A stretch of DNA of 64,000 nucleotides from Sinosporangium siamense (GTDB lineage Bacteria; Actinomycetota; Actinomycetes; Streptosporangiales; Streptosporangiaceae): assembly GCF_016863435.1 (NCBI RefSeq), contig NZ_BOOW01000032.1, forward strand, positions 1 through 64,000. The letters are read 5' to 3'. The notes under the pieces are model-generated. The model was not told where the DNA came from, made no database searches, and saw only the letters and a list, made by a program, of their open reading frames with translations. The position numbers were made by a program, and so were the translations under genes. This document shows positions 1-57,689 of the stretch, one piece after another; position 1 is the first letter of the stretch, and each line of letters starts with the position of its first letter.

Positions 1-422
1 AAGGCGAAGACCGCTCCAAGGGTCTTGATCATTTCGCAGCGGTTGCCGAAGATCTTCTCGTAGGACACCGGCCTGCCGCGCCATTGGCCCGTCAGACGCG
101 CGGTGTTGGGGATGTATTCGGTGGTGCACATAGCGTTGGGATCGACGTTGAGGGCCGCCGCGTTGCCGTTCACGCTGCGGAGCAGATCGCAGGCGGATTT
201 GGCGGTCGGATGGGTGCCCGCGTCGGGGTCGCAGGTGAGCGTGACGCCTCTCGGCGCGGGTCCGGGGATGCTGGGGGCGTTCAAGGTCTGCACGGTGATG
301 GACAGTTGGAGCACCGTCCCCGCCCCCTTGCCCGGCGGGGTCTCGTCCGACGCCGAGACCGGGGATGCCGCGGTCAGTGCGGCGCAGGCCAGCAGGGTGA
401 TCGTAAACATCCTCATGGACAT
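1..422 (-). CDS. SSI-family subtilisin inhibitor precursor (3' end cut by window)
   Basis: Small secreted serine-protease inhibitor of the Streptomyces subtilisin inhibitor (SSI) family. The N-terminus has a hydrophobic signal peptide ending near SPVSA. The mature part shows the SSI landmarks: TLTCDP with the first cysteine, a THPTAKSACD segment, the reactive loop MCTTEYIPN, GQWRGRPVSYEKIF and NRCEM, then a C-terminus GAVFA that would close with Phe and stop just outside the window. The four cysteines match the two family disulfides. SSI is cleaved at Met73-Val74; the aligned P1-P1' pair here is Thr-Glu. In-frame ATGs lie at 434, 422 and 410. I take 422, which has a GGGGA stretch upstream, but the start is not certain. 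Confidence 0.85.
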   Translation of the reverse strand, partial: MSMRMFTITLLACAALTAASPVSASDETPPGKGAGTVLQLSITVQTLNAPSIPGPAPRGVTLTCDPDAGTHPTAKSACDLLRSVNGNAAALNVDPNAMCTTEYIPNTARLTGQWRGRPVSYEKIFGNRCEMIKTLGAVFA

Positions 423-45666: not shown

Positions 45667-45996
45667 ATCCCGGCCGGCAATGTTAACGCGGTGAGACCGT
45701 TCCATCACCGGCCGGCGCGGAGGCGGCCTGAATCCCGGATCGGGGGTGGAACGCCGCCGCGGGGATGTGGCATCGCCGCGTCCTGCCGGGCCAGTGGATT
45801 CGTTGATTAATCGAGGCGACCGGCTTCGCCCGGCGCCGGGAATCGATATTCGGAATTTATTGTCGAAGGCCTTTTTAAACGGTCCACGACTTGAAACGGT
45901 GATACGTTTAATCCACGATTCTGCGCATGACTTGTGAAGATCATTGTGCAGTGTCGTCGAGGGCGGTCCGATCCCGCTCGCGCTGAAGGAGTTCGT
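45667..45996. other. 330-bp leader before the subtilase cluster
   Basis: No gene is evident. The second half (about 45785-45950) drops sharply in GC with TTATTGTCG- and TTTTTAAAC-like stretches, a likely promoter for the subtilase cluster. CCGGCCGGC-type inverted repeats near 45671 and 45710 may end the RpiR transcript. Confidence 0.55.
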
Positions 45997-48900
45997 GTGC
46001 CGCACACCCCCCGGCGGTGGCGAACGATCCTGACGGGATCCGCTGTCGCTTTTACAATTCTGCTTCCCCCGGGGACGGCGAACGCCGTGCCGCCGCCCGG
46101 CCCGCAAAAGATCGACCAGGCTCTCCTGGCCGACTTGAGCAAAGGTGGTAAGACCCGCTTCCTGGTGCGCATGAAAGGCGGCGCGGACCTTGGCGCCGCG
46201 CGAAACACCGCCACCAAGGCCGGCAAAGGCGCGCGGGTTTATCAGGCCAAGACCGCGGCTGCCGCCTCGTCTCAGGCGAAGCTGCGCAGCCTTCTCAGCG
46301 GGCGCAAGGCGGACTTCACGCCCCTGTGGATCGTCAATGCGGTGCGGGTGGCGGGCGACGCCGGCCTGGCCGGCGAGATCGCCAAGCTTCCCGAGGTCGA
46401 GCGGATCGAGCCCGATTCGGTGCTGGAGAAGCCCCGGGGGAGGACCGCCGGACGGCCCGCCACGACACAGGCACAGGTCAACGGGGTCGAGTGGAACATC
46501 GACCGCATAGGCGCCCCCCAGGTGTGGAGCGAGTTCGGCACGCGGGGGGAGGGCGTCGTCGTCGGGAGCATCAGCTCCCTCGTGCAGTTCGACCATCCGG
46601 CGGTCGCGGCGCAATATCGCGGCAAGAAGGCCGACGGAAGTGTGGACCACAACTACAACAGGGTCGACTTCGGGGAATGCGGCAACACGAACTCCCCGGT
46701 GCCGTCCCGGTGCACCAACGTCACGTCCCTGGGCACCCCGCATATGGGGGTGATGGTCGGCGGCACGGCCACCGATCAGATCGGTGTCGCCCCCGGCGCG
46801 AAATGGATCAACGCCGCGGGGTGCGAGGGCACATACTGCTACACGAGCACCCTGCTGGAGGCGGGGCAGTGGATGCTCGCCCCCACCGACCTGCAGGGCC
46901 GCAACCCCCGCCCCGATCTGGCCCCCGACATCGTCAGCAACTCCTGGGGGCTGCCCGCGGGCCATCGACCCGGCGGCGGGCCCGGCTACAACCGGTTCTA
47001 CAAGGAGATCGTCGACGCGTGGGTGGCGGCGGGCATCTTCCCCGCACTCGACATCGGCCTCAACTCGCGTGACTACGAGTGCGGCTCCAGTTACTCCCCC
47101 GGGCAATACACGGGCGGCTACGCCGCGGGAGCGTTCGGCCCCGACAATGTGGTTCCTCCCGCGGTCGGCCGCGGTCCCGGGGAGGACGGCGCGGCCAAGC
47201 CCGACATCGCGGCACCCGGGGTCGGCGTACGGTCGGCCCAACTCGGCGGTGGTTATCGCACATGGGCGGACACCTCCCTGGCCGCCGCACACGTGGCGGG
47301 CACCGTGGCGCTGATGTGGTCGGCCGCTCCCAGCCTCTACCGGGACATCCCCGCCACCCGCGCCCTGCTCGACCGCACCGCGATCGACGCCGAGGACACC
47401 AGCTGCGGCGGCACGGCGGCCAAGAACAACGTCTACGGCGAAGGCCGCCTCTCCGCCTACGCCGCCGTGCGCGACGCCCCACGCAGCGCCGTCGGCGCCC
47501 TCGGCGGCACGGTCGCCTCGGGCGGCGCGAAGGTCGCCGAAGCCCTGGTCACAGTGGGGAACCGTACGACTGTCACCGCGGCGGACGGCACCTATCGGTT
47601 CCCCCGGCTCGCGGTGGGCACACATCGGGTCATCGTGAAGAAGGCCGGATACGCGGAGGCGGGCGCGGGCGTCACCGTCACCGCGGGCGCGACGGTCACG
47701 CACGATGTGGAACTGCCGCCCGCGGCGGCCCGCACCGTCTCGGGAGTGGTCGGCCTGGAAGGCGTGCCCCAGGCGGGTGCGACGGTGCACCTGGCGGACA
47801 CCCCGGTGAGCGCCGTCACCGACGCGGCCGGGGCATATCGGCTCTCCGTGGCCGACGGCGAGCACCGGCTGAAGGTCACCGTGCCCGGCGCGACATGTGC
47901 CGGCTCGGCGACGGTGCCGATCACGGTGGCCGGGGACCTGACGAAGGACATCGCCCTGCCACGCCGTACCGACGACTTCGGCTATGTCTGTGTGAGCGGC
48001 ACGGAGCCGTATGTCGCCGGCACCGAGCGGCAGGCGGGTGCACCTAACGCGGCGCCGGTGGTGACGTTGCCGTTCGAATTCCCCTTCTACACAGGCTCCT
48101 ACCGTAAGGCGACGCTTTCCTCCTCCGGTTTCTTGATCTTCGGGGAGCAGCCGGCGTTCTATTCGGTGGGAGGAAACGATCGTATTCCCACCAAACTCAT
48201 TAGCTATCCCGCGATCTATCCCTTCTGGGATGACCTCGTGGTGGACGGTCAAGGCGGGATTTATACCGCCAGGGTGGGAACTGCCCCTGAGCGTAGTTAC
48301 ATCGTGGAGTGGCGCAATGTCGCCATCAGGGCCGATCTCACGAAACGTATCTCGTTTTCGCTGATCCTCGGAGAGAACGGCTCGATCGGTTTCCGCTACC
48401 GGGGCACCGCGGGCGGTCTCGCCGGTGGAGGCAGTGCGACGGTCGGCATGGAGGGGATGAGCACCATCCACTCCAACGGCTTCAAGGCCGGAGACAACAA
48501 GTCGTTCCTTTACTCCTACAACAAGCCGGTGCTCGCCGACGGCCGGAGCCTGACGTTCACCTCGGCAGGGCACGGGCTGATCGGCGGCACCGTCTCCAAC
48601 GCCAACGACGGCCGCCCGCTGGCCGGGGCCACCGTCAAGATCGGTGACACCGTCACGGTCACCACCTCGGAGGACGGCGCCTACGCCGCCTACGCACCAC
48701 CCGGCGAACAGCAGGTCACCGTATCCATGGAGCAATACGGCACGGTGACCCGGCGGGCCACCGTCGCCGTCGGCGAGCGCACGCCCCTGCACGTCCCCCT
48801 GGTGACCGGCAGGGTGAGCGCCGACAGGAGTTCGGTGGAGGTCGTCGTCCCCGGTGGGCAGACCCGCGCCGGCACGTTCACCCTCAGCAACCTGGGCACG

Positions 48901-49608
48901 GCGGCGAGCGCCTTCACCGTGGAGCACGACCGGACTCTGGGGTGGCTGAGCGTCTCCCCGGCGAGCGGCGAACTCGCCCCGGGCGCGTCCGCCACGATCA
49001 CGGTCACGGGCAGCGCCGCGGGCCTGCAACCTGGCTCCTTCCGTACAGGCGAACTGGTGGTGACCTCCGCCAGCGCACGGAACCCGAAGATCCGCATCCC
49101 GGTGACCGCCGTCGTGCCGGGGCAGCGGATCGCCGTCGACGCGGGCGGCACCCGTGAGGTCACGGACGCGCTGGGGGACAGGTGGAGCGCCGACCGCGCC
49201 TACACCCCGGGCGGCTACGGATATATGGGAGCCCAGAGCGGCACACACACCGCCACCGGCACGATCCGCGGCACAGGCGAGCAGGAGCTGTTCAAAACCG
49301 CACGCGAATCGCTGCTGGAGTATCGCTTCGACAACCTGCCCAACGGCATCTACACGGTCGAGCTCGGCTTCGCCGAGACACGCGACAGGCGTCCGGGCGA
49401 GCGGATCTTCAGCGTCACCGCCGAAGGAGAACTCGCCGTCCCCATCCTCGACCTGGCCCAGGACGTCGGTGCCGGCACCGCCACCACCAGGACTTACACC
49501 GTGAAGGTCGCCGACGGCCAGCTCAACGTGCGTTTCGCCGCGCAACGCGGCGGCCCCGTCGTCAACGCCGTTCGTGTCACCGAGCGGCCCGACAAGACCA
49601 CCCCTTAG
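45997..49608 (+). CDS. subtilase-family pseudoprotease with malectin-like C-terminus (copy 1)
   Basis: Secreted protein of 1203 residues, first of three tandem homologues. Order: signal peptide 1-30, I9-like propeptide ~53-142, S8 fold ~165-480, two carboxypeptidase-regulatory-like beta-sandwiches ~495-660, a NIDO-like domain ~690-860, a third regulatory-like domain ~870-945, a BACON/Ig-like domain ~950-1040 and a malectin-like domain ~1047-1203. In the S8 part the catalytic Asp is Ser193 (SISSLV), the His is Leu245 (TSLGTPHMG), the oxyanion Asn is Leu355 (DIGLNS); only Ser427 (ADTSLAA) remains. It should have no subtilisin-type activity, yet the frame is intact. GTG 45997 follows AAGGAG. Confidence 0.93.
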   Translation: MPHTPRRWRTILTGSAVAFTILLPPGTANAVPPPGPQKIDQALLADLSKGGKTRFLVRMKGGADLGAARNTATKAGKGARVYQAKTAAAASSQAKLRSLLSGRKADFTPLWIVNAVRVAGDAGLAGEIAKLPEVERIEPDSVLEKPRGRTAGRPATTQAQVNGVEWNIDRIGAPQVWSEFGTRGEGVVVGSISSLVQFDHPAVAAQYRGKKADGSVDHNYNRVDFGECGNTNSPVPSRCTNVTSLGTPHMGVMVGGTATDQIGVAPGAKWINAAGCEGTYCYTSTLLEAGQWMLAPTDLQGRNPRPDLAPDIVSNSWGLPAGHRPGGGPGYNRFYKEIVDAWVAAGIFPALDIGLNSRDYECGSSYSPGQYTGGYAAGAFGPDNVVPPAVGRGPGEDGAAKPDIAAPGVGVRSAQLGGGYRTWADTSLAAAHVAGTVALMWSAAPSLYRDIPATRALLDRTAIDAEDTSCGGTAAKNNVYGEGRLSAYAAVRDAPRSAVGALGGTVASGGAKVAEALVTVGNRTTVTAADGTYRFPRLAVGTHRVIVKKAGYAEAGAGVTVTAGATVTHDVELPPAAARTVSGVVGLEGVPQAGATVHLADTPVSAVTDAAGAYRLSVADGEHRLKVTVPGATCAGSATVPITVAGDLTKDIALPRRTDDFGYVCVSGTEPYVAGTERQAGAPNAAPVVTLPFEFPFYTGSYRKATLSSSGFLIFGEQPAFYSVGGNDRIPTKLISYPAIYPFWDDLVVDGQGGIYTARVGTAPERSYIVEWRNVAIRADLTKRISFSLILGENGSIGFRYRGTAGGLAGGGSATVGMEGMSTIHSNGFKAGDNKSFLYSYNKPVLADGRSLTFTSAGHGLIGGTVSNANDGRPLAGATVKIGDTVTVTTSEDGAYAAYAPPGEQQVTVSMEQYGTVTRRATVAVGERTPLHVPLVTGRVSADRSSVEVVVPGGQTRAGTFTLSNLGTAASAFTVEHDRTLGWLSVSPASGELAPGASATITVTGSAAGLQPGSFRTGELVVTSASARNPKIRIPVTAVVPGQRIAVDAGGTREVTDALGDRWSADRAYTPGGYGYMGAQSGTHTATGTIRGTGEQELFKTARESLLEYRFDNLPNGIYTVELGFAETRDRRPGERIFSVTAEGELAVPILDLAQDVGAGTATTRTYTVKVADGQLNVRFAAQRGGPVVNAVRVTERPDKTTP

Positions 49609-49617
49609 ACGAGCCCG

Positions 49618-49646
49618 CGGCCTCGCCCATGCTGTGAGCGAGGCCG
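49618..49646 (+). terminator. 9-bp stem between subtilase copies 1 and 2
   Basis: CGGCCTCGC at 49618-49626 pairs perfectly with GCGAGGCCG at 49638-49646 over an 11-base loop, directly after the copy 1 stop. A T run (49669-49673) follows at some distance, just ahead of the AAAGGAG of copy 2. It may act as partial terminator or processing site. Confidence 0.6.
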
Positions 49647-49685
49647 TGGCGGGACACCCTCCCCCTTTTTAAAGGAGACCACGAC

Positions 49686-52600
49686 GTGCCACGCTTTCCC
49701 AGGCGTTGGCGAACGGCCGTGATCGGCACCGCCGCTGTCTTAGCGCTGTCGCTTCAGTACGGTGTCGCCCAGGCCGCACCCCAACCGGGCAAGATCGACA
49801 GCGCCCTGTCGGCGGCTCTCGGCCAAGGGCCTGCGACGTTCCTCGTCCATCTGAAAGGCGGCGCCGATCTCAGCACGGCGGCCAAAGCCGCCACCAAGGA
49901 CGACAAGGCCACACAGGTCTTCAAGGCGAAGACCACCCACGCCACACGTTCCCAGGCGGGTCTTCGCGACCTGCTCCGCAGTACGAAAGCGACGTTCACC
50001 CCGTTCTGGATCGTCAACGCGGTCAAGGTGACGGGCGACGCCGGCCTGGCCGCCTCGATCGCCAAGCTGCCGGAGGTCGAGCGGATCGAGCCCGACCGGG
50101 TCATCCCCCTGTGGCAACCGCTGAAAGGCAGGCAGCAGCCGAAGGTCGCCGGGGTCGAATGGAACCTCGACCGCATCGGCGCCCCGCGCGTCTGGAGTGA
50201 GTACGGCACACGCGGCGAAGGCGTGGTCGTCGCGAACATCGACAGCGGCGTGGAGTTCGACCACCCCGCGCTGGCCGCGCAATACCGGGGGAGGAAGACC
50301 GGCGGCGCCGTCGACCACACCTACAACTGGTTCGACGCGACCGCCGAATGCGCGGGCGGGACACCATGTGACGCCAACGGCCACGGCACCCACACGATGG
50401 GCACGATGGTCGGCGCGTCGGGTGCCGACACCGTCGGCGTCGCTCCCGGCGCCAAGTGGATGGCGGCCAAAGCATGCGGTCTGAGGAGCTGTGAGATGAC
50501 CGCCCTGCTCGCCGCGGGGCAGTGGCTGATCGCGCCCACGGACCGGGACGGGCTCAATCCGCGCCCCGATCTGGCACCCGACATCGTGAACAACTCGTGG
50601 TCGGGCCCCACCGGTGACCCCTGGTATAGGTCCGTGGTCGACGCCTGGGTCGCCGCCGGGATCTTCCCCGCGTTCGCCAACGGCAACTCGGGCCCGGGGT
50701 GCTACAGCACCGGCTCTCCGGGACACGAGGCCGGCGCCTACAGCACGGGTGCATTTGACCTCAACAACCAGATCGCGGGCTTCTCCAGCCGGGGTCCCGG
50801 GGCCGACGGTCAGGTCAAGCCCGACATCGCCGCGCCAGGGGTGGATGTGCGTTCGTCCACACCTGGAGGTGGTTATGGACTCATGTCCGGCACCTCCATG
50901 GCCTCGCCCCACGTAGCCGGCACCGTGGCGCTGATGTGGTCGGCCTCTCCGGGGCTGAAAGGTGATGTCGGCACCACCAAGGGGCTGCTGGACCGGACCG
51001 CCGTGGACGTCGGCGACACCACATGCGGTGGCACCGCGACCAAGAACGGGGTCTGGGGAGAGGGCCGCCTCGACGCCTACGCCGCGGTGCGCGGCGCGCC
51101 CGGCGGAGAGGTCGGCGGCATCTCGGGCACGATCACCTCGGGTGGTGCACCGCTTGAGCTGGTGACCGTCACATTCGCCGGTCCCCTGGACCGGACCGTC
51201 GTCACCGGCAAGGACGGCACCTACACCCTGCCGCGCCTGCTCGCCGGCGACTATCGGGTCGGTGTGCGCCGAGCCGGATATAGCCAGGCCACCGCGACCG
51301 TCACCGTCACGGCCGGCCGTACCTCCGTGCACGACGTGGCGCTCACCGCCCAGCCTGTGCACACGGTGTCGGGGGTGGTCGCCACCGACATGGGACCCGA
51401 GGCGGGGGTCACGGTCAACGTGGCCGGCACCACGACAAGTGCCGTCACCGACGCCGCGGGGCGCTACAGCCTCTCGGTGGAGGGAGGCGAGCACAAACTT
51501 CGCGTCACTCCGCGCGTCGCCCGCTGTGCGGCGTCCATCACGGTGCCCATCTCGGTGCCGGTCACGGTGAACGGGGAGGTGAGCAAGGACATCACCGTGC
51601 CTCGCCGTACCGACTCCTTTGGATATGGGTGTGCCGTCGGCACCGACAGGTCCTTCCCTTCGGGGACTAACCGGCTTCCGGTCACTGTGCATGGGCAGCC
51701 CTCGGCGCCGTTCTCGCTGCCCTTCCGGTTCCCCTTCTACGACCAGGCCTACAGCGGGGGTCAGATCGGCTTCAACGGCTGGATGAGCTTCGCCGGCAAC
51801 GGAGGATGGCGTGATTCCGCGCTTCCTTCACCCGGCGCGCCCAATGCTGCGATCTATCCACTGTGGGATGAGTTCCAAATGGACGAACGATCCGGGGTGT
51901 ACACCGCGCTCCAGGGGAGCGCGCCCAGCCGGACGTTCATCGTGGAATGGCGCGACCTCTACTTCCACGCGGATCCGAGCAAGCGCGTGTCGTTCTCGGC
52001 GCTGCTCGGGGAGAACGGCTCGATCCGCTTCCACTATCGCGGCATCACCACCGGCGTCTCCACCGGAATCACCGGGACCGTGGGCATCGAGAACGCCGAC
52101 GGCACCGGCGCCTTCCAGTTCTCCCACAACCAGGTGGCGCTCGCCGACGGCCAGACCCTGACCATCACCCCTGGCCGGCACGGGCTGCTCACCGGCACCG
52201 TCACCGACGCGGGCGACGGCAAACCCGTGGCGGGAGCCACCGTGAAGGCCGGCGACGCCATACTCACGACCGGGGAGGACGGGACCTACCTCGGCTACGC
52301 CCCCGTGGGCGACCAGCGAGTCGAGATCTCACGTGAGCACTACGGCACGACCACGCAGAACGCCACGGTGAGCCTCGGAGCCTGGACCCGCCTCGACGCG
52401 TCCCTGGTCACCGGCAGTGTGAGCGCCTCTGTGCGCGAGATCGACCTGACGCCGCCGACCGGCACCGCGGCGAGCCGCACCGTCACCCTCACCAACGTCG
52501 GCACGTCCGCTGCCGCCTTCACGGTCACCACCGCACCGGCCCGGGGCTGGCTCACCGCGACACCAGCGAACGGGCAGGTCGCCCCCGGCGCGTCGGTGGA

Positions 52601-53213
52601 CGTGACGGTCGGCGTCAGCAGCGCCGGAGTGCAGCCCGGCACCTATCGCACCGGGAAAGTGGTGGTGCGATCGGCCAGCGGCCGGGCTCCGCAGGTGGAG
52701 ATTCCGGTGACCATGGCGGTGCCCAAGTGGCAGACGGCGGTCGACGCGGGTGGCACACGCGAGATCGCCGACTCCTACGGTGACCGCTGGGTGGCCGACC
52801 GCGCCTATAGCCCGGGTGGTTACGGCTACATGGGAACACGAACCAAGGCCCTCACCACCACCAGGACGATTCGCGGCACCCGGGACGAGGCGCTGTTCAA
52901 GACCGCCCGCGAGGCGATGACCGAATATCGCTTCGACAACGTGCCTGTGGGCGTCTACACGGTCGAACTCGGCTTCGCCGAGACACGTACGGCACCGCCG
53001 GGCCGCCACGTCTTCGACGTCCTGGCCGAGGGACGGCTGGCCATGCCCATGCTCGACATCGCGCAGGAGGCCGGCGCCGACACCGCGACGGTGCGGCGCT
53101 ACACCGTGAAGGTCGCCGACGGTCAGCTCAACCTGCGCTTCACCGCCCGCACCGGCACACCCATCGTGAACACCATCCGGATCACCGAGCGGCCCGACAA
53201 GACCGCCCCGTAG
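49686..53213 (+). CDS. secreted subtilisin-like protease with malectin-like C-terminus (copy 2)
   Basis: Secreted S8 protease of 1175 residues with the same layout as copy 1. The signal peptide ends GVAQA; the I9-like propeptide (~51-139) ends VERIEPDRV. The complete active site is visible: Asp186 in NIDSGV, His233 in NGHGTHTMG, Asn334 in NGNSGPG and Ser404 in SGTSMASPHVAG. Downstream are regulatory-like beta-sandwiches, a NIDO-like region (IYPLWDEFQMD, FIVEWRDLYFH), a BACON-like domain (WLTATPANGQVAPG) and the malectin-like end (VDAGGTREIADSYGDRW). Malectin-like domains bind glucans or other sugars, so it may be held on walls or polysaccharide. GTG start behind AAAGGAG. Confidence 0.95.
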   Translation: MPRFPRRWRTAVIGTAAVLALSLQYGVAQAAPQPGKIDSALSAALGQGPATFLVHLKGGADLSTAAKAATKDDKATQVFKAKTTHATRSQAGLRDLLRSTKATFTPFWIVNAVKVTGDAGLAASIAKLPEVERIEPDRVIPLWQPLKGRQQPKVAGVEWNLDRIGAPRVWSEYGTRGEGVVVANIDSGVEFDHPALAAQYRGRKTGGAVDHTYNWFDATAECAGGTPCDANGHGTHTMGTMVGASGADTVGVAPGAKWMAAKACGLRSCEMTALLAAGQWLIAPTDRDGLNPRPDLAPDIVNNSWSGPTGDPWYRSVVDAWVAAGIFPAFANGNSGPGCYSTGSPGHEAGAYSTGAFDLNNQIAGFSSRGPGADGQVKPDIAAPGVDVRSSTPGGGYGLMSGTSMASPHVAGTVALMWSASPGLKGDVGTTKGLLDRTAVDVGDTTCGGTATKNGVWGEGRLDAYAAVRGAPGGEVGGISGTITSGGAPLELVTVTFAGPLDRTVVTGKDGTYTLPRLLAGDYRVGVRRAGYSQATATVTVTAGRTSVHDVALTAQPVHTVSGVVATDMGPEAGVTVNVAGTTTSAVTDAAGRYSLSVEGGEHKLRVTPRVARCAASITVPISVPVTVNGEVSKDITVPRRTDSFGYGCAVGTDRSFPSGTNRLPVTVHGQPSAPFSLPFRFPFYDQAYSGGQIGFNGWMSFAGNGGWRDSALPSPGAPNAAIYPLWDEFQMDERSGVYTALQGSAPSRTFIVEWRDLYFHADPSKRVSFSALLGENGSIRFHYRGITTGVSTGITGTVGIENADGTGAFQFSHNQVALADGQTLTITPGRHGLLTGTVTDAGDGKPVAGATVKAGDAILTTGEDGTYLGYAPVGDQRVEISREHYGTTTQNATVSLGAWTRLDASLVTGSVSASVREIDLTPPTGTAASRTVTLTNVGTSAAAFTVTTAPARGWLTATPANGQVAPGASVDVTVGVSSAGVQPGTYRTGKVVVRSASGRAPQVEIPVTMAVPKWQTAVDAGGTREIADSYGDRWVADRAYSPGGYGYMGTRTKALTTTRTIRGTRDEALFKTAREAMTEYRFDNVPVGVYTVELGFAETRTAPPGRHVFDVLAEGRLAMPMLDIAQEAGADTATVRRYTVKVADGQLNLRFTARTGTPIVNTIRITERPDKTAP

Positions 53214-53216
53214 ACC

Positions 53217-53247
53217 GGTGGGTCCGGGGGCTTGCCCCGGACCCACC
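53217..53247 (+). terminator. perfect 13-bp stem between subtilase copies 2 and 3
   Basis: GGTGGGTCCGGGG (53217-53229) pairs perfectly with CCCCGGACCCACC (53235-53247) around a five-base loop, four bases after the copy 2 stop. There is no U run. It should terminate or strongly attenuate transcription into copy 3, or protect the upstream message. Confidence 0.75.
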
Positions 53248-53278
53248 TGCGGTCCGTCGCGCGCCAAGGAGATTGTCC

Positions 53279-56200
53279 ATGTCACGCTTTCTTCGACGGT
53301 GGCGAGCGGTGCTCGTGGTCGCACTCGCCGCCGTCACCTTCCTCACCCCCCACGCGGTGGCCCAGGCCGCGCCCGACCCGGCCACGGGCAAGATCGATAC
53401 GGCACTGGCCGCCAAACTGGCCAAAGGCTCCGTCTCCTTCCTCGTGCACCTGAAAGGCGAGGCCGATCTCCGTGCGGCGACCGCCGGCGCCACGACGAAG
53501 GCCGACAAGGCGACGCGGGTCTTCACCGCCAAGACGGCACACGCCGAGACCACCCAGCGCACCTTGCGGACCCTGCTCACCACGCGCAAGGCGGAGTTCA
53601 CCCCCTTCTGGATCGTCAACACGGTCAAAGTCACTGGTGACGCCGACCTGGCGGCCGACATCGCGGCCCTGCCCGAGGTGCGGCGTGTCGAACTCGATCG
53701 CACCATCCCCGCGCCGAAGGCGGCACCGGGCGAGCGGATGCCCAAGGTCAACGCCGTCGAGTGGAACATCGACCGCGTCGGCGCCCCGCGCGTGTGGAGT
53801 GAGTACGGCACACGCGGCGAAGGCATCGTCGTCGCCAACATCGACAGCGGCGTGCAGGTCGACCATCCCGCCCTCGCCGCGCAATATCGGGGCCGGAAGG
53901 CCGACGGCACCGTCGACGACAACTACAACTGGTTCGACGTCCGCCGGCATTGCCGGACGAGCTCTCCCTGCGACCTCAACGGCCACGGCACCCACACGAT
54001 GGGCATCATGGTGGGCGACTCCATCGGCGTGGCGCCGGGAGCGAAATGGATCGCGGCCAACGCCTGCTCGTGGGGGTGCGACTGGAGCGCGCTGCTAGAG
54101 GCCGGACAGTGGATGGTCGCCCCGACCGACCTCAACGGGCGAAATCCCCGCCCCGACCTCGCGCCCCACATCGTCAACAACTCGTGGAGCTCTCTGGAGT
54201 TCCACACCTTCTACACCCAGGTGGTCGCCACCTGGGTGTCCGCCGGAATCTTCCCCGTGTTCAGCCAGGGCAACGCCGGGCCGAAGTGCAACACCGGCGG
54301 ATCCCCGTCGGCCGACCCCAACGTCTACAGCGTCGGCGCGTTCGACGCCGGCAACCGGATCGCGGAGTCCTCCAGCCGCGGAGTGGGGGACCGCGGCGAG
54401 ATCAAGCCCGATGGCGCCGCACCGGGCGTCAATGTGCGCTCGTCCGTGCCGGGGAGCGAATATCACGTATTGTCCGGCACCTCGATGGCGGCGCCCCACG
54501 CCGCGGGCATCGTCGCGCTGCTGTGGTCCGCCGCACCGGGCCTGAGCAGGGATATCCCCGGCACCCGAGACATGCTCGCCCGCAACGCGATCGACGTCGA
54601 CGACACCTCATGCGGCGGCACCGCGGCCAGGAACAACGTATGGGGCGAGGGGCGCCTCGACGCCAACCGCCTGCTGTCGGACGCCCCCACCGGCCCGACC
54701 GGCGGCCTCGCCGGCACCGTCACCTCGGGCGGCACCCCAGTCGCCCAAGCGGAGATCACTGTCACCGGGCCCCTGAACCGCACGCTGGTGACGGGGGCGA
54801 ACGGCGCCTTCGCTCTGCCGTACCTCAAGACCGGCACCTATCAGGTCGCGGTCCGGGCCCTCGGGTACGGCGAAGCCACCGCATCCATCACCGTGGCGGC
54901 CGATCAGACGCACAGGCACGAGGTGTCGCTCCAGGCGCTGGCCACACATCCTGTGACGGGAACCGCCACGGCCGAGGGGGGAGGACCGGAGGCAGGGGCG
55001 GTGGTGAGCGTGACCGGAACCTCGGCGAGCACGGTCACCGATGCGGCGGGACGCTATCGGCTGGCGATGCCGGTGGGGGACTTCGAACTGCGGGTCACCC
55101 CGCGGCGCCAGAGTTGTGCGGGACCGGTGTCGGTGCCGGTCGCGGTGCGGGCGGCGACGGTGCAGGACATCACGGTGCCCCGTCGTCTCGACGCGTTCGG
55201 CTACAGCTGTGTGAGCGGGCGTGAGCCCTATGTCGCGGGGACCAGCAAGGTCACGTTCGCGAGCGAATTTCTGGGCGCACCGGTGGAGCTGCCGTTTCCG
55301 ATCGTGCACTATGGCGAGACCTATTACGGGAAAGCCTGGGTCCACGGCGGCGGCTGGTTGAGCTTCGTCGGCCATGGCGGTGGCGATGAGAATCGTCCAC
55401 TGCCCTACCCGGGAGAGCCCAACGGGTCGATCATGCCCTTCTGGGACGCGCTGAAGGTAGACGACAGCGCCGGTGTCTACACCGCTACCGTCGGCACGGC
55501 TCCCAAACGGTTCTTCGTGGTGGAATGGCGCAACGTCGCCTTCGCGGCGGACCGTAGCAAGCGGGTCTCGTTCTCCGCGCTCATCGGTGAGGACAGCTCG
55601 ATCAGCTTCCGCTATCGCGGTGTCACCCACGACATGGCCACCGCCGGCGGCGCCACCATCGGCATCGAGAACGGCAAAGGCGACGGGGCCTTTCAATACT
55701 CGTTCGACACGGGTTCCCTTACCGACGGGCAGAGCCTGACCTTCTCCACCGACCGCCATGGCTTTCTCAGCGGCACGGTCACCGACGCCAACGACGGCAG
55801 CCCCCTCGCGGGAGCCACGGTGAAGGTGGGTGAGGTGACGACCAGGACAATCGACGACGGCACTTACATCGCACAGGTGCCCGTCGGAGATCAGCAGGTC
55901 ACGATGTCGAAGGAGAACTACGGTTCCCTCACCCAGCCCGCGACCGTCAGCGCCCGGGCTCACGCATATCTCGACGCGGCTCTGATCACCGGGAAAATCA
56001 GTGCCTCCGCCCCGGAACTCGACCTGGTGATGCCGGCGGACGCCACCCGGACGGGCACACTCGTGCTCACCAACACGGGCACGTCCCGCGCCGCCTACAG
56101 CCTTCAGGTCCCGCAGAGCCAGGAGTGGCTGAGCGTGTCACCGGCGGCCGGCGAACTCGCCCCCGGCGCCTCGGCCACGGTGACCGTCACCGCGCGAAGC

Positions 56201-56791
56201 ACCGGCCTGCCCGCCGGGGCGGTGCGCACCGAGCGTGTGCTGCTGCGCTCGGCCAGTGGCCGCGTGCCGGAGATGAGCATTCCCGTGACCATGGTGATTC
56301 CCAGGGTGCGCATCGCCCTGGACGCCGGAAGCCCCCGAGAGACGGTCGACTCTCTTGGGGAGCGGTGGAGCGCCGACCGTGCCCACACGGCGGGCGGCAG
56401 CGGCTACCTCGCTCCGCGGAACAGGACCCGGACCACCTCCCGGGCCATCAAGGACACCGCCGACCAGGAGCTGTTCAGGACCGCTCGCGAGTCGATGTCG
56501 GAGTATCGCTTCGACAATCTGCCGGTCGGGTTCTACACGGTCGAACTCGGCTTCGCCGAAACCGGCTGGGCGCGTCCGGAACAGCGGGTCGTCGACGTTT
56601 ATGCCGAGGGGGAGATCGCTGTACCGGCCCTGGATCTCGCTCAGGAGGTGGGGATCCGTACCGCTACCGTTCGTAGCTATACGGTGAAGGTTTTGGACGG
56701 TCAACTCAATATGCGGTTCACCGCTCGTAAGGGAAGGCCGATTCTCAGTTCCATCCGGGTCTCGGAGCGGCCTGACAAGCTTACTCCGTAG
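53279..56791 (+). CDS. secreted subtilisin-like protease with malectin-like C-terminus (copy 3)
   Basis: Secreted S8 protease of 1170 residues, close in layout to copy 2. The ATG at 53279 has AAGGAG seven bases upstream. The signal peptide ends AVAQA. The active site is complete: Asp189 (NIDSGV), His236 (NGHGTHTMG), Asn332 (QGNAGPK) and Ser402 (SGTSMAAPHAAG). Copy-specific Cys pairs (HCRTSSPC, NACSWGC) flank the fold. The C-terminal domains follow the same order, with SLGERWSADRAHTAGG opening the malectin-like end and RPDKLTP at the terminus, which recurs as RPDKTxP in copies 1 and 2. A strong terminator follows. Confidence 0.95.
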   Translation: MSRFLRRWRAVLVVALAAVTFLTPHAVAQAAPDPATGKIDTALAAKLAKGSVSFLVHLKGEADLRAATAGATTKADKATRVFTAKTAHAETTQRTLRTLLTTRKAEFTPFWIVNTVKVTGDADLAADIAALPEVRRVELDRTIPAPKAAPGERMPKVNAVEWNIDRVGAPRVWSEYGTRGEGIVVANIDSGVQVDHPALAAQYRGRKADGTVDDNYNWFDVRRHCRTSSPCDLNGHGTHTMGIMVGDSIGVAPGAKWIAANACSWGCDWSALLEAGQWMVAPTDLNGRNPRPDLAPHIVNNSWSSLEFHTFYTQVVATWVSAGIFPVFSQGNAGPKCNTGGSPSADPNVYSVGAFDAGNRIAESSSRGVGDRGEIKPDGAAPGVNVRSSVPGSEYHVLSGTSMAAPHAAGIVALLWSAAPGLSRDIPGTRDMLARNAIDVDDTSCGGTAARNNVWGEGRLDANRLLSDAPTGPTGGLAGTVTSGGTPVAQAEITVTGPLNRTLVTGANGAFALPYLKTGTYQVAVRALGYGEATASITVAADQTHRHEVSLQALATHPVTGTATAEGGGPEAGAVVSVTGTSASTVTDAAGRYRLAMPVGDFELRVTPRRQSCAGPVSVPVAVRAATVQDITVPRRLDAFGYSCVSGREPYVAGTSKVTFASEFLGAPVELPFPIVHYGETYYGKAWVHGGGWLSFVGHGGGDENRPLPYPGEPNGSIMPFWDALKVDDSAGVYTATVGTAPKRFFVVEWRNVAFAADRSKRVSFSALIGEDSSISFRYRGVTHDMATAGGATIGIENGKGDGAFQYSFDTGSLTDGQSLTFSTDRHGFLSGTVTDANDGSPLAGATVKVGEVTTRTIDDGTYIAQVPVGDQQVTMSKENYGSLTQPATVSARAHAYLDAALITGKISASAPELDLVMPADATRTGTLVLTNTGTSRAAYSLQVPQSQEWLSVSPAAGELAPGASATVTVTARSTGLPAGAVRTERVLLRSASGRVPEMSIPVTMVIPRVRIALDAGSPRETVDSLGERWSADRAHTAGGSGYLAPRNRTRTTSRAIKDTADQELFRTARESMSEYRFDNLPVGFYTVELGFAETGWARPEQRVVDVYAEGEIAVPALDLAQEVGIRTATVRSYTVKVLDGQLNMRFTARKGRPILSSIRVSERPDKLTP

Positions 56792-56882: not shown

Positions 56883-57689
56883 CTATGGAGTTTCGGAGAA
56901 GGTGGGGGTCGCGGCGGTGAGGGGCTTGGCGTTGAATTGGGGGCCGGACCATCTGCTTCTGAGCATGGTCAGAGTGGTGGGGGTGATTGTCTGCCGCTGC
57001 TTGAAGATGACGAACTGCACCGGATACCAATAGTCGGAGCCGCCATGAGTCTCAGGTGTCGTCTTCGATCCGACATAGCGCCACGAACCCGCCTGTGCAG
57101 GGGACGCCGGCTGTGTGGGAATCAGTCCGCGCAGGTTGACGTTCCTGTTGATTGCGGGGTCGCATTCGTTGGGCGGCGTGACCAGCAGGTCGTCATGTGC
57201 GGAGTTGGTGGGGCTCGGGGAGTTGTTGACGTCGAGGAGCACCACGAGGACGAGAAGGTCGTGTGCTCCGCCGGGGCCCTGGTGCAAGAGGTGTGCTTCG
57301 ACAGCCGGGTAATCGGGCTGGTTGTCCTGCTTGTGTTCGCCCTTGGCGTGATAGTGGATGTTCTTGAGCTCGTAAGTGTTTCCGTTCCAGCTGACCTGGC
57401 GCTCGGAAACGGGGAAGCTCACTGGAACGCCCCGGATATCCTCTTCAAAGTGAGTGGAGAGGCACGTCCCCTTGTTCTCGTGGGTGACGTCGAAGGTCCT
57501 GTTGCCGGTGGCATAATTGACATAGAGCGTGTCCGTGCTGGTGCCGCCGGCCGGGGTCGTGTCAATTTCCACGGGGCTGACGTTGAGATATGCGAAAGAG
57601 GAAGCAGTGGTGGTGGTTGGCGCGACCGTTAAGGCTGCGGTGAGGGCGAGGAGAGCACCTATCGCCATGGGGACGCGTTTGGGAGCCAT
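56883..57689 (-). CDS. secreted alpha-carbonic anhydrase family protein
   Basis: Protein of 268 residues with a signal peptide ending near TTTTA. It follows the alpha-CA plan: SPVEIDT near the mature start, Zn ligands His112 and His114 in NIHYHAKGEH and His133 in VEAHLLHQ, and the late WRYVGSKTTPETHGG, which corresponds to the conserved YRYxGSLTTPPC with its catalytic-site Thr. The usual Cys of that motif is Thr here. It should hydrate CO2 outside the cell, though the deviations leave room for a binding role. GC is lower than in the neighbouring cluster. Overlapping palindromes lie ~150 bp upstream. Confidence 0.85.
   Translation of the reverse strand: MAPKRVPMAIGALLALTAALTVAPTTTTASSFAYLNVSPVEIDTTPAGGTSTDTLYVNYATGNRTFDVTHENKGTCLSTHFEEDIRGVPVSFPVSERQVSWNGNTYELKNIHYHAKGEHKQDNQPDYPAVEAHLLHQGPGGAHDLLVLVVLLDVNNSPSPTNSAHDDLLVTPPNECDPAINRNVNLRGLIPTQPASPAQAGSWRYVGSKTTPETHGGSDYWYPVQFVIFKQRQTITPTTLTMLRSRWSGPQFNAKPLTAATPTFSETP

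Follow-up and report, generated by a model that had tools for sequence, protein, structure and literature searches.

A subtilase homologue without three of its four active-site residues heads a protease gene cluster in Sinosporangium siamense

Why should a bacterium retain a full-length protease gene whose product lacks residues that proteolysis requires, and retain it in front of two relatives in which those residues are intact? The question is raised by three tandem subtilase genes, here called copies 1, 2 and 3, of Sinosporangium siamense, located in the first 64,000 nucleotides of contig NZ_BOOW01000032.1 (the whole stretch analysed, hereafter the window). Copy 1 has lost the catalytic Asp, the catalytic His and the oxyanion Asn, and is very probably a pseudoprotease kept by selection. 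Three points go beyond the initial annotation of the locus: many other genes of the family are inactive too, the clade of copy 1 lost catalysis long ago, and clusters are usually led by a non-catalytic gene. The principal features are the following.

45997-49608, plus strand: copy 1, 1203 amino acids, a subtilase homologue predicted to be secreted, in which D, H and oxyanion N are lost
45986-45991, plus strand: ribosome binding site AAGGAG, read from the sequence, 5 bases upstream of the copy 1 start
46546-47445, plus strand: Peptidase_S8 domain, copy 1 residues 184-483 (Pfam, 78.7 bits)
46573-46575, plus strand: Ser193 at the catalytic Asp position of copy 1 (alignment)
46729-46731, plus strand: Leu245 at the catalytic His position of copy 1 (alignment)
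47059-47061, plus strand: Leu355 at the oxyanion Asn position of copy 1 (alignment)
47275-47277, plus strand: Ser427 at the catalytic Ser position, retained in copy 1 (alignment)
48580-48801, plus strand: best match among the three CarboxypepD_reg stretches of copy 1 (Pfam)
49129-49563, plus strand: malectin domain of copy 1 (Pfam, 76.4 bits)
49686-53213, plus strand: copy 2, with intact D186/H233/N334/S404 (Pfam, alignment)
53279-56791, plus strand: copy 3, ATG start at 53279, with intact D189/H236/N332/S402 (Pfam, alignment)

The reading frame of copy 1 opens with GTG at 45997 and its stop codon ends at 49608, so that both the intact frame of 1203 codons and the ribosome site reported in the initial annotation were borne out; AAGGAG-like sequences also precede most of the listed family starts. 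The signal peptide was recognised by eye. Residues were assigned in an alignment of copy 1 with 60 relatives (61 rows), and the subtilisin numbering frame was verified by comparing copy 2 with Tk-subtilisin. The alignment gave exactly the residues first proposed, namely S193/L245/L355/S427 in copy 1 and intact D/H/N/S in copies 2 and 3. An active S8 serine peptidase requires the Asp-His-Ser triad together with the oxyanion Asn, and copy 1 possesses only the serine. Its match to PF00082 covers the whole profile (1-288 of 288) and lies well above the cut-off of 21.8 bits; copies 2 and 3 score 148.5 and 133.7 bits. Behind this domain all three copies were found by Pfam to possess three CarboxypepD_reg stretches, an Ig-like/BACON match and malectin, in agreement with the C-terminal domains proposed earlier. 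Substitutions at family-invariant S8 positions are concentrated around the former active site, affecting 10 of 23 positions within 5 residues of the catalytic sites and 10 of 119 far from them (p=1.2e-4). With the four catalytic columns excluded, the counts are 7/19 and 10/119 (p=0.0026).

Phylogenetic analysis was performed on S8 domains from which the catalytic windows had been removed. Copy 1 falls within a clade of eight members, four per species in S. siamense and S. album, all of them inactive (support 100/99); a quick tree of the C-terminal tails recovers the same eight with a Shimodaira-Hasegawa-like approximate likelihood ratio (SH-aLRT) support of 99. The residues of these members at the D/H/N/S positions are SLLS, GFPS, GYLW, SAYH, TPFP, AGFG, GNSD and GNLD, and such four-letter states are used below to name genes. 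Over the entire S8 tree six changes of state between active and inactive are counted, five of them forced by well-supported branches. Sister pairs between the two species are supported at 100/94 for copy 2, 100/97 for copy 3 and, less firmly, 96/66 for copy 1; in the tail tree the copy 2 and copy 3 pairs receive 95 and 91, and the copy 1 pair is unresolved. Amino-acid identity within the copy 1 pair is 68% in the S8 domain and 64% in the tail, and within the copy 2 pair 70% and 63%. The clade is further marked by an insertion:

46951-46980, plus strand: clade-specific insertion past the S1-site strand, about residues 319-328 of copy 1 (alignment)

This insertion of 6-9 residues beside the former S1 site is found in 8/8 clade members and in 0/53 other rows, and the W-to-W stretch measures 23-26 residues in the clade against 16-19 in the other 53 rows. 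Since the eight inactive members, four per species, have one insertion in common, the loss of catalysis in this clade is older than the species split. The residues G190, P394, R449 and K476 were found to be fixed specifically in the clade. In the S8 domain 142 positions hold one residue in 95% or more of the active members; of these the average clade member retains 115.75. Pairwise identity in the clade is 0.42 near the catalytic sites and 0.65 elsewhere in S8, whereas active members show the opposite order (0.73 near, 0.66 elsewhere), as would be expected of a domain that retains its fold but not its catalysis. The possibility that the triad is supplied by other residues, named in the initial annotation as a ground for abandoning its interpretation, was searched for in the clade alignment; no conserved alternative was found, and an alternative triad in copy 1 is rejected, as the clade has no fixed replacement residues.

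Selection was estimated on the S8 domain as omega, the ratio of nonsynonymous to synonymous substitution rates (dN/dS), by pairwise maximum-likelihood codon models in our own script. For copy 1 and its S. album sister omega is 0.031, to be taken as an order of magnitude only because dS is saturated at 6.9; twice the log-likelihood difference from omega 1 is 250. Three other inactive pairs between the species gave omega 0.129 (dS 1.5), 0.293 (dS 0.26) and 0.072 (dS 1.8), and two inactive paralogues within one genome gave 0.051; in the clade pair GYLW/SAYH dS is beyond use. Intact genes show omega of 0.002-0.061 in four between-species pairs, with dS partly saturated, and 0.119 and 0.038 in two paralogue pairs within a genome. 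Neutral drift simulated to 0.25 substitutions per site introduces 8-12 stop codons on average, and copy 1 contains none. The earlier proposal of selection on a non-catalytic role is therefore upheld by between-species omega well below 1 and the lack of stops, the opposite of the ratio near 1 with stop codons that had been set as evidence against it. The ancient loss, low omega and uninterrupted frame rule out a recent pseudogene in the case of copy 1. Copy 1 thus combines lost catalytic residues, an intact frame and purifying selection (the three other between-species inactive pairs being less saturated than its own), which makes a selected pseudoprotease very probable.

The family is unusually large in this genus. 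The N-terminal 503 residues of copy 1 match 26 places in its own genome and 14 in S. album, fragments and one distant subtilase counted, and 1-7 places in each of 29 genomes of other genera at E<=1e-60 (all candidates scored). Long members, defined by frames of at least 800 amino acids and excluding the shorter copies, number 20 in S. siamense and 13 in S. album. At least one of D/H/N/S is lost in 11/20 and 8/13 of them, or 19/33 in total. A triad residue is lost in 18/33, and the nineteenth is an oxyanion-only variant of S. siamense (L015, C57:44422-48516) in which the triad is intact and the oxyanion Asn is replaced by Asp. The proprotein convertase PC2 is active with Asp at the oxyanion site, and because of this the C57 gene was counted as possibly active.

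Outside Sinosporangium at least one of the four residues is lost in only 1 of 124 complete S8 domains sampled; they are intact in 28/28 best matches and in 95/96 further complete unique domains (104 rows less 7 incomplete and 1 duplicate). These loci were gathered for their similarity to copy 1, from the best 30 matches of each search or from those listed in one scan, and may include a few S8 proteins that do not belong to its family. The sole exception (L098:5896-9597) is a full-length inactive member (GGMG) of Streptomyces albipurpureus, with no second family copy in 6 kb on either side, and represents an independent loss; two S. album rows (L096, L097) were excluded from the comparison in which it was seen. 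Real decay is exemplified in S. siamense by a frame-broken copy (L085, C13:199701-203589) in which the promoter-like element described below is still present (50.8 bits). Truncated or long-branch copies were also encountered at C12:171632 of S. siamense, likely a recent pseudogene, and at C44:359064 of S. album. Searches with the tail in six genomes matched family members, broken copies or fragments; one of the S. album matches is a putative fragment (C59:180301-180930) with 44% identity and one in-frame TGA.

The predicted structure is that of a subtilisin fold with propeptide. AlphaFold2, applied to residues 31-502 of copy 1 with 61 sequences, returned a mean predicted local distance difference test (pLDDT) of 85.1 and a predicted template modelling score (pTM) of 0.90; the low-confidence parts are both ends, the linker after the propeptide, the insertion and model residues 443-449. 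The closest solved fold to this model is unautoprocessed pro-subtilisin E (VIA Z 39.0, root-mean-square deviation 2.7 over 342 residues), and pro-Tk-subtilisin is also among the nearest. By analogy with CspC of C. difficile, discussed below, copy 1 probably retains its propeptide uncleaved.

The position of inactive genes within clusters was then considered, a lead gene being one with no same-strand family gene ending within 200 bases upstream. Non-catalytic genes make up 13/17 lead or solitary genes and 6/17 internal genes (Fisher two-sided p 0.037, with C57 taken as active and kinship among genes ignored). Of the 13 non-catalytic leads five are solitary, and the other eight stand at the head of multi-gene clusters, 6/8 of which contain one or more intact siblings. 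One S. album lead gene (C44:368901-371000; L083:15902-17998, minus strand) encodes a signal peptide, recognised by eye, that is joined directly to the repeat/malectin tail, with neither propeptide nor S8 domain, which indicates that catalysis is dispensable at that position. The order of the copy 1 cluster recurs on S. album contig C6, where three genes lie in the same inactive-active-active arrangement, so that in both species the pseudoprotease is encoded with active subtilases, copies 2 and 3 in the case of copy 1.

Upstream of copy 1 lies a promoter-like element:

45870-45950, plus strand: promoter-like region conserved upstream of family lead genes (sequence-only model R1, 68.1 bits, E 4.1e-18 for the genome)
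45880-45896, plus strand: CGGTCCA box followed by a -35-like TTGAAA at 45891-45896 (exact pattern match)
45914-45919, plus strand: putative -10-like CACGAT, 17 bases past TTGAAA (3/6 consensus bases)

A core CCAC[CG]AT is conserved around the -10-like site in upstream alignments, and the upstream box, TTGAAA and this core are common to all eight clade genes. The exact box pattern has seven matches in the 8.86 Mb S. siamense genome, all upstream of inactive family members; four of these were used to write the pattern, and those at GATF, DNHL and GGTS were not. In S. album there are 6 matches. Four lie upstream of inactive family genes, and the pattern was derived in part from all four of these; the remaining two, like one in eight further genomes, show no alignment beyond the motif and look like chance. 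The reversed pattern, as a control, matches once in S. siamense, never in S. album and 5 times in the eight other genomes. All 11 family genes bearing the strict box are inactive, eight of these matches having served to write the pattern, and so are 8/22 of the other long members. No strict box was found upstream of a family gene in eight other genomes searched. The box as a switch between active and inactive genes is too strong a claim in view of the core promoter common to active genes, the chance and control matches, and the circularity of the pattern.

Model R1 was built from 11 sequences, copy 1 among them, all from inactive leads, and 150 of about 900-1400 candidates per genome were scored. 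Among these candidates, matches at E up to 1 number 13 in S. siamense and 5 in S. album, all at family genes (one of them the broken C13 copy), and the element marks the majority of lead genes. At E below 1e-6 the model finds one place in each of 7/10 other genomes, upstream of an active family gene and in five of six genera, the core being at best weak in the genus that includes Nonomuraea; weaker matches away from family genes occur in two genomes (G009, E 0.054; G230, E 0.59). The core promoter thus looks ancestral and private to the family, and the strict box looks like a Sinosporangium variant of it. Leads defined by R1 are non-catalytic in 12/15 cases against 7/19 other genes (p 0.017), a count biased by a model built from 11 inactive leads, so that the count by position alone is preferred though weaker; among the four R1 leads outside the model-building set one is non-catalytic. 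A scan of the window for sigma-70 promoters and terminators gave one promoter-like match, inside copy 1, and missed the candidate promoter.

The genes of the cluster are separated by short gaps of 77 bases (copy 1 to copy 2) and 65 bases (copy 2 to copy 3):

49609-49685, plus strand: gap between copies 1 and 2 with a GC-rich hairpin (minimum free energy -35.2 kcal/mol, z -3.8; the fold takes in the stop codon)
53214-53278, plus strand: gap between copies 2 and 3 with a GC-rich hairpin (minimum free energy -37.9 kcal/mol, z -3.4)

GC-rich hairpins at z <= -2 are found in 12/17 gaps between family cluster members, these two included, and may be partial terminators or mRNA stabilisers. Flanking genes are common to the S. 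siamense C12 cluster and the S. album C44 cluster. Elsewhere in the window, a gene for an SSI-type subtilisin inhibitor (42-266, minus strand) shares its contig with the protease cluster, and a gene facing the cluster (56883-57689, minus strand) has a weak match to eukaryotic-type carbonic anhydrase (31.9 bits).

What, then, might copy 1 do? Catalytic-residue loss, selection, cluster order, lead position and the promoter-like element are computed results, and an inactive lead, often with working siblings behind it, suggests a non-cutting partner or binding role. Among the roles offered in the initial annotation, a decoy, a chaperone or regulator of the neighbours and a binding protein for a shared substrate, these results do not single out one. 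The lead position, cluster order, common tail and S8-less S. album lead favour a role for copy 1 as a lead subunit that does not cleave, binding or organising while its siblings cut, a tentative reading to which we give a probability of about 0.42. The family's own promoter would drive production of copy 1 ahead of the others and, if the genes are co-transcribed and their products exported as predicted, copy 1 would leave the cell together with the active copies 2 and 3. It would fold with its propeptide and be unable to cut. With its repeat/Ig/malectin tail, which the siblings also have, it would attach to the extracellular target or assembly that they too hold, and its S8 domain, with the propeptide probably still on, could act as a rigid scaffold for contact with the siblings or for their regulation. 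A bolder version, which we consider quite unlikely, treats the lead pseudoproteases as a diversified recognition system, whose variable former active-site face would bind self, matrix, prey or substrate proteins and pass targets to active siblings; if true, Sinosporangium turned a secreted protease into a recognition system with the former active-site surface and the new loop as its binding face.

Several observations weigh against the lead-subunit reading. Two clusters with a non-catalytic lead hold no intact member (GYLW-DYSW in S. siamense and SAYH-DRDS-DNDA in S. album), for which our estimate was lowered from 0.45, and five non-catalytic genes are solitary; an active neighbour is therefore not always present. 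Four leads still have the triad (C44, C12:175249, C12:179181 and C57, the oxyanion variant), non-catalytic genes also occupy six internal positions, and kinship among genes is disregarded in the lead-position statistics. Neither the C14 gene nor its partner in S. album has a full tail, so malectin is not always needed. A single operon is assumed, and the strong gap hairpins could stop transcription. Finally, no common flanking genes were found between the copy 1 cluster and its S. album counterpart in the stretches compared.

Four other explanations were ranked below the lead subunit, in the order of a signalling switch, passive decay, an inhibitor decoy and hidden catalysis. The least unlikely of them supposes that a signal, small or polymeric, is bound by copy 1, which then activates or restrains the active copies through S8-S8 contact. 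The model for this is C. difficile, in which two subtilase pseudoproteases, CspC and CspA, are encoded together with active CspB and pair as a heterodimer in signalling (PMC12880746, PMC6636752). The cluster logic of copies 1-3 is the same; however, copy 1 reaches 24.1 bits with the CspBA model (NF040809, cut-off 1250), the CspC model (NF040808) is absent from the matches listed for it, the domain layout differs, and there is no known ligand or partner. Moreover, a section heading of PMC12880746 places CspB outside the CspC-CspA complex. Passive birth and death, with many copies of a young, fast-duplicating family merely losing function, would account for the decay seen at C13, C12:171632 and S. 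album C44:359064 and for the two clusters without an intact member, but not for the long frames, the low omega of four inactive pairs, the common insertion or the ancient loss, nor readily for conservation of the promoter-like element (though the broken C13 copy has it too). It fits a few copies, not copy 1, for which it is disfavoured and improbable.

SSI-type inhibitors bind the subtilase substrate groove, and copy 1 might absorb such proteinaceous inhibitors and so spare copies 2 and 3, the decoy role entertained in the initial annotation. Genes of this type occur in both genomes, one at the start of the copy 1 contig, so the decoy cannot be dismissed for want of inhibitors, and the overall S8 fold is predicted to be retained. 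Against it, in 8/8 clade members the groove region no longer has some of the residues otherwise conserved and carries the insertion, the near-catalytic columns are the most variable, and the S8-less S. album lead cannot act in this manner; we regard the decoy as slightly less probable even than passive decay. Least probable by far is that other residues of copy 1 give a working site or a different chemistry, since the four positions vary widely in the clade and its newly fixed residues include neither Asp nor His nor Cys, even if Ser427 is retained in copy 1 and its S. album sister.

The lead-subunit reading can be set beside known systems. Like the Csp proteins (NF040808, NF040809), copy 1 has a subtilase fold with a lost triad, a propeptide (uncleaved in CspC; PMC6636752) and an active paralogue alongside; a further parallel is that relatives of Csp in Clostridiaceae and Lachnospiraceae are predicted to be active (PMC6636752, PMC12880746). 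Csp, unlike copy 1, are spore proteins with a jelly-roll insert. The copy 1 family differs in being predicted to be secreted, in its CarboxypepD_reg/Ig/malectin tails, in having 18-19 of 33 members inactive and in its own promoter-like element, and copy 1 lies far below the CspBA cut-off. Detailed knowledge of bacterial pseudoproteases paired with active paralogues comes, to our knowledge, mainly from the Csp proteins. Intact orthologues in other genera of the same bacterial family (for example Nonomuraea aurantiaca, L100) resemble copy 1 in length, the best-match frames being mostly 1170-1235 amino acids, and in the four such genomes searched they combine S8 with the same tail; unlike copy 1 they have D/H/N/S intact in all best matches and bear no strict box in the genomes searched for it. 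Bacillus Vpr (PDB 8jmw), also a secreted S8 fold, resembles the copy 1 model (VIA Z 36.4), and this subtilase is described as also building extracellular structure, with fibrils that are enzymatically active (PMC10657474); no result for the copy 1 family points to fibrils.

A prokaryotic survey of 2008 recorded 42 inactive proteins among 966 serine protease homologues, in five families and 91 genomes (PMC2605481). Compared with it, Sinosporangium presents a lineage-wide inactive set in one family with conserved cluster order, although the survey may include tandem cases. Among the open-access literature matches listed, none described an actinobacterial family of secreted subtilases that is clustered and half inactive, or an inactive case among malectin-tailed actinobacterial subtilases, as the initial annotation had supposed. 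Subtilase-fold pseudoproteases are thus already known from Csp and the 2008 survey, and the Sinosporangium case is a variant of that class. The genus lives freely in soil, and its two species together have 33 long paralogues, of which 18-19 lack catalytic residues through several independent losses, with frames mostly intact and cluster order conserved. Its natural series of active, oxyanion-variant, triad-lost and S8-deleted members offers a means to test why a non-cutting protease fold persists.

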